Shown in pieces: positions 3,629-18,043 of a stretch of DNA of 36,210 nucleotides. The translations under genes were made by a program, and so were the position numbers. The notes beneath the pieces were generated by a model. It saw only the letters and a list, made by a program, of their open reading frames with translations, was not told the DNA's origin and did not search any database. The stretch covers positions 1 to 36,210 of the forward strand of contig JAGQQG010000058.1 in NCBI GenBank assembly GCA_020426325.1. Reading direction: 5' to 3'. Source of the stretch: Planctomycetaceae bacterium (lineage in GTDB: Bacteria > Planctomycetota > Planctomycetia > Planctomycetales > Planctomycetaceae). The stretch's first letter is position 1, and every line of letters begins with the position of its first letter.

Positions 3629-3887
3629 TTGCAAGCCGAAGATCGGCAGCCTGCACCTTGACGGACAGGACGTCGCCACCCCCGTGATCCCCGGAGCCCT
3701 CTGAGGTGGCCTCATTGCCGCCAACGGCATTGACCATCGAGTGGTGGGCCACTTCAACGGCCGACGAGTCGTATTTGAAGTTGATACGCCGTATCAACCT
3801 TTTCAGTCTCATCGCAGGGGCGAGACGTTATTCGTCACACCACAGGGCAGACTCGACATTGATTTAGTGATTGTTTCCGGGACTTGA
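3624..3887 (+). pseudogene. Possible gene remnant with one in-frame stop
   Basis: In the frame starting at 3624 the plus strand reads as plausible protein for about 88 codons, interrupted once by TGA at 3702-3704 and ended by TGA at 3885-3887. Stretches include 'KIGSLHLDGQDVATPVIPGAL' (shortened here: IGSLHLDGQDVATPV), 'GGLIAANGIDHRVVGHF', 'RRVVFEVDTPYQPF' and 'ETLFVTPQGRLDIDLVI'. No ATG start or ribosome-binding site is present and the left end runs into the preceding gene, so it would be the tail of a lost gene. The parent family is not recognised. The reading is by eye and could be chance. Confidence 0.3.
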
Positions 3888-14000: not shown

Positions 14001-17000
14001 AAGCCCACGGGTTACAACCCGTGGGTGAAGGTGATGAAGAAAACGCTTCGACCACCATTGAAGGCGGCCAGCTGTTCGTCATTCGAGGCGAAGGCTTCGA
14101 CGGATCGGAGTTCAAGTTCAACGACCTGGAACTGATCGTCGACAAGCCGGAGTACGCGCCGGACGACACGGTCAATCTGCTGATCAATACCAATCGCATC
14201 GGTTCGACGGTGTTGCTCTTCGTCCGACCGACGAACGGCGTGTATGTCGAGGAGCCGCGCGTCCTGAGGATGGATGGCAAGAGTACGGTCGTCGACATCG
14301 GCGTCGTGCAGGGCGACATGCCCAACTTCTTCGTCGAAGGGCTGACCATCGCAGACGGCAAGGTGTATTCGGTGGTGAAAGAGATTGTCGTTCCACCCGA
14401 ACAACGTGTGCTCAACGTGTCAGTCGAACCGGACCACGAAGACTACCAGCCGGGACAGGAGGCCAATGTCACGTTGAAACTGACCGACCTTGAGGGGCAA
14501 CCGTTCGTTGGCTCAATGGCCATGAGCGTCTACGACCGGGCGGTCGAGTACATCTCCGGCGGCAGCAACGTTCCGGAAATTCGTGAGTTCTTCTGGAAAT
14601 GGCGACGCAACCATAATCCCAACACGGAACACAGCCTCGCTCGCTGGTCCGACAACCTGCTCAAGCAGGGCGAAACGCCAATGGGCAACCTCGGCGTGTT
14701 TGGTGAACAAGTCGCTGACAATGAGTTCAAAGACCGAGGAGGAGTCGCTCAGAAATCGGGGATGAGAGCGCTCGGGCGAGGCATGGAGATGCGCTCCCTC
14801 GAAGCCATGCCCGCCATGGCAGCACCAATGTCCGAGATGGCGGCCGATGGGATCGTCGCCAACACGGCTCAAGGAGGAGAAGCGGGGGCCATGGTCGAGT
14901 CGACGGTCCGGACACAGTTCGCGGACACGGCTTTCTGGAAGGGGGACATCACGACGGACAGCGACGGTCTAGCAAAGGTCTCGCTGACGATGCCGGAGAA
15001 CCTCACCGGCTGGAAGATCCGCACCTGGGCGATGGGGCACGGCACCCGCGTTGGCGAGGGGGAGACCGTTGTCACGACGTCCAAGAATCTGCTCGTTCGG
15101 CTGCAGGCTCCACGCTTCTTCACAGAAACTGACGAAGTCGTGCTGAGTGCGATTGTGCATAACTATTTGGAAACCGAGAAGCAGGCCCAAGTGGAGTTGA
15201 TTCTCGAAGGCGGCACGCTCGAACCAATGGCGAGCGGGGGACGTCAGTCCTCTGATGGGGCCACACACGACAGGGGGTTAACACCCTCCGCTCGCCATGT
15301 GACGATCCCCGCTGGCGGGGAGGTGCGGGTCGACTGGCGAGTCAAAGCGGTTGCTGAGGGAGACGCGGTCGTTACCGTCAAAGCCCTCACCGACGAAGAG
15401 TCTGACGCGATGCAGCAGACGTTCCCCGTCTACGTGCATGGGATCCTCAAGACCGAGTCGTTCAGCGGCGTCATTCGACCGAAAGACAACACCGGCGTGA
15501 TCGACGTCACCGTCCCCGCTGACCGTCGCCCCGAACAAACGCGGCTTGAAGTGCGCTACTCGCCCACTCTAGCCGGTGCGATGGTTGATGCCCTGCCGTA
15601 TCTGGTCGAGTACCCCTACGGCTGCACCGAGCAGACGCTTAACCGGTTTCTGCCGACCGTCATCACTCAGCGGATTCTTCAGCGAATGGGACTCGATCTG
15701 GCAGCGATCCAGGAGAAGCGGACCAACCTCAACGCTCAGGAGATCGGCGATGCGGGTGAGCGGGCTGCCCAGTGGAAGCAGTACGACCGCAACCCGGTCT
15801 TCGACGAAGCTGAGGTCGAGCGAATGGTCAAACAGGGAGTGAAGGACCTGACCGCGATGCAACTCAGTGACGGCGGCTGGGGCTGGTTCTCCGGTTTTGG
15901 CGAGCAGAGTTATCCCCACACGACAGCGGTCGTCGTGCATGGCCTGCAGATTGCCACGCAGAACGATGTGGCCCTCGTGCCGGGTGTGCTCGATCGGGGG
16001 ATCGAGTGGCTCAAACAGTATCAGGACCAGCAGGTCTCGCTGCTGCAGGAGGGGGAACGCCGCGCGAAGCTGGAGGGTGAACGTCTTCGTAAGCACAAGA
16101 AGCCATATCGCATGCAGGCATCCAATATCGATGCACTCGTGTTCATGGCGCTGGTGGATGCAGATCAGACGAACGATGAAATGCAACGCTTTCTGTTCCG
16201 TGATCGTCTGGAACTGTCACTGTACGCTCAGGCCCTCTTCGGTCTGGCCCTGCACGAGATTGATGCGATCGACCAGCGGGACACGATCATCCGCAACATC
16301 GACCAGTTTCTGAAGGTCGACGATGAAAACCAGACGGCCTATCTCGACCTGCCCAACCAGGGTTACTGGTGGAACTGGTTCGGCGACACGATCGAAGGAA
16401 ATGCGTTTTACCTCAAGCTGCTGACACGAGTGAACCCGCAGGATGAGAAGGCAGCCGGGCTCGTGAAGTACCTGCTCAACAACCGCAAGCACGCGACCTA
16501 CTGGAACAGCACTCGCGACACGGCCTACTGCATCGAAGCGATGGCCGAATACCTCACCGCCAGCGGCGAGGACAAACCGGACATGACCATTGAAGTCATC
16601 GTCGATGGCAAGGTACGAAAAGAGGTACAGGTCACGAGCGACAACCTGTTCACGTTCGAGAACTCACTGGTTCTCGAAGGAGAAGCAGTCGAAAGCGGCC
16701 CGCATCAGATCGAACTCAGAAAACGAGGCACCGGCCCGCTGTATTACAACGCCTACCTCACAAACTTCACGACCGAGGACTTCATCACGTCAGCCGGGCT
16801 CGAGATCAAAGTGGAACGGGAGTTCTACAAACTCGTGCAGCGTGAAGACGCAACCGATGTCGTGCAGGGGAGTCAGGGACAGGTCATCGACCAGCAGGCC
16901 CTGAAGTATGACCGGGTCCCGCTGGCGAATCTCTCCGAAGTGACGAGCGGCGATCTGATCGAGATCGAACTCACGATCGAATCGAAGAACGATTACGAAT

Positions 17001-17328: not shown

Positions 17329-17360
17329 CCATCAGGGGATTGACATCCCCCGCTCGCCAT
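17329..17360 (-). repeat. Second copy (half element) of the macroglobulin-embedded repeat
   Basis: On the minus strand these 32 bases match 15227-15258 at 29 of 32 positions. The copy contains its own small hairpin (GGGGA-tgtcaa-TCCCC). It lies between the end of the macroglobulin gene and the convergent gene, touching the latter's stop codon. Confidence 0.75.
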
Positions 17361-18043
17361 CATGTTGTCGATGTCGCTCGTCCGCTTGTCTCAGTCTTGC
17401 GGTTGGGACTGTCGTCCGGACCGAGCGGTTCCTCGCTGGGAAGGACCTGGGCCACGTCGACCCGGTTTTCATCGCCGCCGAAGGAGCGGAGATAGCCGAG
17501 GATTTCCTGGTAGTGGCCGTAGACTCTCATCGAGTCGTAGCGGGTGATGAATCTGGTCCGGTCACGACTGTTGAGGCGGGTCCAGGCAACGATCGTCTTG
17601 TCGATTGCTCCCATCAGCACAAGCGCATGTGTGCTCTTGAGTTTGAGCTGTGACTGTAAAGGAATATCGGGGTCGCTGCCGTCGAGTGCATACGGCAGAT
17701 CGATGAGTCCACCGCTCTGATTCTGGATGTCATCTCCACCAAAAGGGTTCTCGCCAATCCCGATGGTGGCGTTGGTGTCGATCGCCTTCTCGATTTTGTC
17801 ACCCAGATCCTCGTGATCGGGGTTGTGAGTGACGCGGCGTCGCCAGCGGTCGCAGTTGACGAGGTGTGCAAGCAGGTGATCACGAGTCGGATCATCGAAC
17901 CCGCCGCGATCGGAGAGTTCATCGTTCGCCAGCAGTTCTGACCGCATGGTGAAGAGTGGTGAAAGAGCGGCAGCGATGTGCAGGTTCCGCAGCGTCAGGA
18001 TGCTGCGACGGAATTGTTCTTGTCCGGGGGCTCCGATGGGCAT
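17360..18043 (-). CDS. Hypothetical protein, last gene of a three-gene operon
   Basis: 227 residues, soluble, not recognised. The N-terminal half is helical ('RRSILTLRNLHIAAALSPLF'), with 'RDHLLAHLVNCDRWRRRV' in the middle. 'ENPFGGDDIQNQSGGLIDLP' is a Gly/Asp-rich loop, followed by helices ('SQLKLKSTHALVLMGAIDKT'). The C-terminal 30 residues are polar and probably disordered. The stop falls at a repeat copy, so the tail may have been altered by that repeat. ATG 18043 has AAGGA 6 nt upstream. It follows the thioredoxin-like gene by 42 nt on the same strand, so the two are probably co-transcribed. Confidence 0.75.
   Translation of the reverse strand: MPIGAPGQEQFRRSILTLRNLHIAAALSPLFTMRSELLANDELSDRGGFDDPTRDHLLAHLVNCDRWRRRVTHNPDHEDLGDKIEKAIDTNATIGIGENPFGGDDIQNQSGGLIDLPYALDGSDPDIPLQSQLKLKSTHALVLMGAIDKTIVAWTRLNSRDRTRFITRYDSMRVYGHYQEILGYLRSFGGDENRVDVAQVLPSEEPLGPDDSPNRKTETSGRATSTT

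Follow-up and report, generated by a model that had tools for sequence, protein, structure and literature searches.

A REPIN-like hairpin doublet in frame within a planctomycete alpha-2-macroglobulin gene, and its family in other core genes

REP sequences that lie inside protein-coding genes were described in a 2013 study of the GTAG and CGTC super-families, whose single or dimeric hairpins occur within open reading frames (ORFs) (PMC3733652). tRNA synthetases and repair genes are among the targets given there, the latter including uvrA (two genes of O. terrae and one of Thioalkalivibrio); inserts of 20–30 aa are frequent, and the authors proposed that inserts of this kind might be neutral where they fall in linkers or loops. 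GTAG REPs are also recorded there for a planctomycete, R. baltica. The palindromic elements of Rickettsia (RPEs), likewise already published, also sit in frame in functional genes, and as described in PMC3733652 those of R. conorii carry a terminal CGTC tetranucleotide. In Pseudomonas, REPINs consist of two REPs in inverted orientation around a spacer and are considered mobile and connected with RAYTs (PMC3116915). Class 3 TnpA-Y1 genes, which have planctomycetes among their carriers, are accompanied by atypical non-GTAG hairpins with the foot CnGA, sometimes in high copy (PMC6006769). Among the matches listed in our literature search, judged by titles and abstracts, there was no further work on in-frame REPs in planctomycete genes.

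We now report an element in the alpha-2-macroglobulin (A2M) gene of a planctomycete, found in a window of 36,210 nt (the whole stretch of DNA that was analysed), together with the repeat family to which it belongs. In our best reading it behaves as a REPIN does and, where it lies in a gene, as an RPE does. The family resembles the intragenic REPs of PMC3733652 in consisting of short hairpins within ORFs, with uvrA and tRNA synthetases as shared targets; unlike the elements treated there, it has the foot GCGAGC, which is neither GTAG/GTRG nor CGTC, and places three doublets in one UvrA fusion. Because this foot fits neither published REP super-family, we have filed the family as a distinct variant. 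The work also goes beyond the account of intragenic REPs in that paper by comparing arms between species at silent sites. With the Pseudomonas REPINs of PMC3116915 the family shares inverted hairpin doublets, a variable spacer and dispersal in many copies, but the analyses taken from that study concern extragenic space, whereas here a third of the doublets are in-frame copies within confirmed genes. Class 3 TnpA-Y1 systems as set out in PMC6006769 are similar in that Y1 transposases are flanked by non-GTAG hairpins, with planctomycetes among the hosts, yet GGCGAGC contains no CnGA. In-frame REPs in uvrA and tRNA synthetases were thus already known; what this work adds is the family with the foot GCGAGC, the transposase group linked to it and the way it behaves inside genes.

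The first-pass annotation had placed an inverted repeat of 72 bp, exactly 24 codons, in the A2M gene (Table 1). The repeat is present, since an inverted-repeat search of the window pairs 15227–15254 with 15271–15298 (arms 75% complementary), and the 2087-aa ORF runs through it unbroken, but the boundaries have to be moved. Across 63 family members the bases outside the block that starts with GGCGAGC are unconserved, apart from a few Gs, and the two flanking bases on each side (AT...AT) pair by chance. The element is therefore limited to this block, 15229–15296, 68 bp, which is not a multiple of three. When this 68-nt stretch was folded as RNA, none of 200 shuffles was equally stable. The related half copy that had been noticed outside the gene is also real: 17329–17360 is 91% complementary to the left arm over 32 nt and begins 54 bp past the A2M stop codon. 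The solo arm within it may be the remnant half of an older doublet, because the congener G001 has a whole doublet, of 82 bp, just past the end of the same gene.

Table 1. Coordinates of the element and neighboring features in the window
Feature	Position	Strand	Basis or remark
Alpha-2-macroglobulin gene, 2087 aa	11012–17275	+	Pfam: MG2, MG3, bait region, A2M, TED, bMG10; open in relatives
Stretch encoding residues 1406–1429 (MASGGRQSSDGATHDRGLTPSARH)	15227–15298	+	Translation; predicted disordered loop between two strands
REPIN-like element, 68 bp	15229–15296	+	Conserved block over 63 arms; inverted repeat; fold z = -4.65
Left arm, type A (stem ends AC/GT), foot GGCGAGC	15229–15254	+	0 mismatches to family pattern
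16-bp spacer between arms	15255–15270	+	
Right arm, type B (stem ends GT/AC), foot GGCGAGC	15271–15296	-	0 mismatches to degenerate family pattern
Solo arm, between the ends of the A2M gene and the convergent ORF	17333–17358	-	2 mismatches to type A pattern, 0 to degenerate pattern
Convergent ORF, 227 aa, no Pfam match	17360–18043	-	Stop codon just outside solo arm

That the element is a dispersed repeat, as the first-pass annotation proposed, was borne out by a search of the host assembly (G000, a draft of 6,845,261 bases in 424 contigs, 95.6% complete). A degenerate 26-nt arm pattern matched 63 arms at up to 2 mismatches, as compared to 1 match for the reversed pattern; a narrower first arm pattern had given 58 matches at up to 3 mismatches, and none in its control. 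The 63 arms make up 36 elements, namely 24 facing (inverted) doublets and 12 single arms, where partners in doublets were accepted at up to 4 mismatches and more decayed partners would escape. Doublets range from 68 to 186 bp (n = 24) with a variable spacer, the one in the window being the shortest. Each of the seven positions of the foot GGCGAGC is kept in 60–63 of the 63 arms, and the arm ends in CTG. Stem pair 12–19 is A–T in 48 arms and G–C in 13 (61 Watson–Crick), while pair 13–18 is C–G in 43 and T–A in 17 (60 Watson–Crick); with two pair types at each position, the stem has been kept through changes on both sides. Each 26-nt arm is therefore itself a hairpin with compensatory stem changes.

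Eight of the 24 doublets are in frame inside five confirmed genes, by which we mean long open frames identified by family matches. One is the A2M doublet, whose in-frame placement had been noted from the window alone, and the seven others are in four further conserved genes: three in a 2423-codon UvrA–UvrA fusion, two in a DUF3686 ATPase of 1884 codons (“involved in DNA repair”), and one each in LysS and IleS. IleS falls short of the NCBIfam cut-off (580 against 621 bits), and its identity comes from its domains and the best-matching family. In LysS, query residues 299–339 stand opposite only 4 residues (297–300) of the solved LysRS chain 3a74_A. Doublets inside genes have a median length of 111 bp, versus 142 bp for the other 16 (p = 0.0006), a difference expected from a filter on gene insertions. 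Lengths that are a multiple of three occur in 5 of the 8 in-gene doublets and in 4 of the 16 others, a difference that is not significant (p = 0.10). The 5′ arm reads ASGGRQSP or a close variant in seven of the eight (p = 0.003 versus one in three, under the assumption, only roughly true, that the three frames are equally open); the exception is the second UvrA site, with GRAGGVNPL. Three further candidates were not accepted as in-gene cases: ORF P0006 (contig C17) has no Pfam match, and in P0009 (a sulfatase, C273) and a DUF1559 ORF (C60) the element is upstream of the conserved domain. Of the 12 single arms, one is inside ArgJ and another is in ORF P0007, for which there was only a sub-threshold family match; the solo arms in L022 and L049 are in open frames without a Pfam match. 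Another of the 12, in L055:453–1532, encodes the C-terminal residues of an Ada-like DNA repair methyltransferase, whose tail reads AGDDSPLTG.

The A2M element is absent at the site in all four same-genus orthologues (G001–G004), and no arm was found at the site in a further 29 and 80 A2M loci from two collections. Away from the site, these loci give a few matches at 3–4 mismatches, of a kind that the reversed controls also give. A clean insertion of 72 bp, for which the first-pass annotation expected a gap at residues 1406–1429, does not fit. Between fixed anchors the A2M loop has 59–61 residues in 86 of 110 rows (some genomes being included twice through the two collections), with extremes of 59 and 113, and 76 in the window; subtracting the 24 residues leaves 52, fewer than the shortest of the 109 other rows, and we have therefore rejected this simple form. 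The net gain of 10–17 residues is also below the 22.7 codons of the element, and a clean insertion is therefore not supported for the 68-bp form either. The insertion either removed host sequence or came into a loop that had already changed. Congeners also lack arms at the sites in LysS (four of four) and IleS (the three that cover the site, the IleS fragment of G003 ending short of it), and the insert sites differ in length between relatives. In another planctomycete (L249) the same A2M loop carries a long insert that by eye resembles an ExbD-type periplasmic segment.

An AlphaFold model of the 360 residues around the A2M site, built from 31 sequences, is weak overall (mean pLDDT 65, pTM 0.47). 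Within it the strand blocks on either side of the insert score 81–92, with strands at 127–136 and 140–142 before the insert (residues 143–166 of the fragment) and at 164–169 and 173–183 after it, while residues 146–161 fall below a pLDDT of 50. The model suggests that the insert is probably a disordered lengthening of a beta-hairpin loop, and no dedicated protein function is apparent for it.

In other genera, similar arms flank one group of Y1 transposase genes, which we define by score rather than by a tree, among the Y1 loci fetched from the host genome and its relatives, as the 12 loci in 10 genomes whose proteins reach at least 95 bits against the L130 protein. Under a strict rule that requires CGAGC-footed hairpins within 700 bp of the Y1 gene, and that mishandles contig ends (L159, L177 and possibly others), 7 of the 12 group loci have such hairpins, compared to none of 52 other Y1 loci (p = 1e-6) and none of the 64 Y1 loci in reversed sequence. 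Excluding the four loci where the link was first noticed leaves 4 of 8 versus 0 of 52 (p = 0.0001). A looser, whole-locus rule brings in two loci at contig ends, L159 and L177, for 9 of 12; elsewhere it picks up an unrelated CGACCC hairpin at L061, L063 and L123, and one weak hairpin plus one distant arm at L127, with one match in the reversed control (L185). In G011 (L124/L158) the Y1 gene is enclosed by two facing arms, 688 bp in all. These loci make the group a candidate for the transposases that act on a foot outside the GTAG and CGTC types. Set by eye, rather than by profile, against the Class 3 motifs W[TA] and Y----Q, the group proteins have WWT or WWA in 11 of 12 cases and mostly Y---Q rather than Y----Q. 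Three group loci (L156, L160 and L178) have no such arms nearby. At L160 and L178, both from G051, the transposase gene has repeated hairpins with a different sequence on its flanks, a hint of joint change in hairpin and transposase.

A protein fragment search with L130 found no group member in the host or in its four congeners (G001–G004), the best host match scoring 61 bits at 33% identity. A PF01797 search of the host gave 11 Y1 matches, and none of the 10 loci fetched carries such arms; on contig C111 a 20-residue match looks like a broken Y1 gene, with no arms nearby. Because the group was not found in these five genomes, the host copies may be orphans, or the transposase gene may be missing from the drafts. 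Across 59 genomes, copies at up to 2 mismatches occur in 7 of the 10 with the group and in 12 of the 49 without it (p = 0.009; the backwards-pattern control gave one match each in G015 and G051), so that the link between group and copies is loose.

We favor, at a probability of roughly 0.8, the reading that the 68-bp element is a REPIN-like doublet of a GCGAGC-footed REP-type hairpin, which a RAYT-like enzyme moves and which proteins tolerate in the form of a flexible loop. The REP/REPIN-type assignment is made because in other genera similar arms flank the one Y1 (RAYT-like) group. The doublets would move, probably as single-stranded hairpins, by means of a Y1 (RAYT/TnpA-REP-like) transposase; we infer that the linked group did so in the host lineage. 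Copies would land genome-wide, and those in genes would survive in tolerant loops where they leave the frame open, with presumed neutrality for the protein. The arm consensus favors this: by eye it lacks stop codons in most frames, and the frame in almost constant use encodes the soluble, Gly/Ser-rich ASGGRQSP. Read in this way, REP-type mobile hairpins add peptide segments to core enzymes of a planctomycete, including two tRNA synthetases and UvrA. The likeness to RPEs drawn in the first-pass annotation holds for in-gene behavior, in that 8 of 24 doublets are in frame in five confirmed genes whose frames stay open; by kind, the element is closer to RAYT-associated REP doublets, because the arms flank the Y1 group in relatives and because its GCGAGC foot differs from the CGTC that PMC3733652 gives for R. 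conorii RPEs. Arms that start with GGCGAGC and end in CTG, the location of 16 of 24 doublets outside confirmed genes and the linked transposase group all set the family apart from RPEs, and we regard it as improbable that the element is itself an RPE, a selfish palindrome specialized for life inside proteins. Inverted ends, a variable middle and a length of 68–186 bp would also suit a MITE derived from a common type of DDE insertion sequence, in which case the 26-nt arms would be its terminal inverted repeats. That origin is very improbable given that each arm is a hairpin with compensatory changes, that 12 of the 36 elements are arms occurring singly, and that such arms flank Y1 genes in relatives. 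The draft state of the genome, in 424 contigs, leaves only the faintest chance of an assembly artefact or chance palindrome when set against 63 arms versus 1 in the control, unbroken frames, and two insert sites common to separately assembled genomes.

Those two shared sites bear on a further question, whether the hairpins in genes are more than tolerated. The insert at the second ATPase site is common to G000, G001 and G002, and that at the third UvrA site to G000 and G002. Taking the second ATPase site of G000 and G001 with the third UvrA site of G000 and G002, fourfold sites are identical at 20 of 23 positions in the arms versus 219 of 403 in the flanks, which were taken as ∼200 codons on each side (p = 0.002), and the spacers have 18% and 32% of their residues in common. 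When the second ATPase site of G000 and G002 is added, the counts become 23 of 29 in the arms and 296 of 559 in the flanks (p = 0.007). G002 has a different hairpin variant at this site: both arms differ from those of G000 (left arm 21 of 26 bases identical, right arm 16 of 26), and by eye they still pair. From these few sites, the comparison suggests that shared-site arms are under constraint or renewal at the nucleic-acid level. The same figures, and the changed yet still pairing arms of G002, favor the explanation that in-gene copies are kept, beyond tolerance, for a useful DNA or RNA hairpin acting, for example, in mRNA decay, translation pausing or chromosome organization. We consider this explanation unlikely, though worth entertaining: the comparison draws on no more than two sites in three species, the same pattern would arise from parallel re-insertion or gene conversion, and in the ATPase left arm only 2 of 5 fourfold sites agree between G000 and G002.

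Some loops have received an insert more than once, in different genera. The first ATPase loop, which is without arms in the congeners of G000, holds in another genus (G016; L359:4072–4200) a 129-bp GCGAGC doublet whose frame differs from that of G000. The third UvrA loop holds a 66-bp doublet in another family (G051; L398:5079–5144), with decayed or variant arms at 4 mismatches each. The A2M loop itself carries an in-frame 84-bp doublet, GTAG-type by eye, in the genus of G029 (also L207, OMIV01000007.1; L081). G016 has in addition a 148-bp in-frame doublet elsewhere in UvrA, and G015 has a decayed doublet in IleS at 3–4 mismatches. Planctomycete core genes might accordingly be lasting harbors, with loops recolonized across genera, even by unrelated REP families, and the hairpin kept at the DNA or RNA level while the spacer drifts. 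We put this forward tentatively, with the odds somewhat against it, although they were raised slightly because other genera have doublets in the same ATPase and UvrA loops. If it is true, one stretch is under constraint both as a protein loop and as a nucleic-acid hairpin. Together, the shared, lineage-specific and independently filled sites make a set that allows tests of tolerance, age and hairpin maintenance.

A second type of in-frame inverted repeat was seen in the host IleS gene, with two insertions (L283:1712–1792 and 3782–3859). It is built of the 7-nt units GAGTCCA/GTGTCCA and ACTGGAC. By eye, similar repeats of this 7-nt type are present in the UvrA, LysS and A2M loops of congeners.
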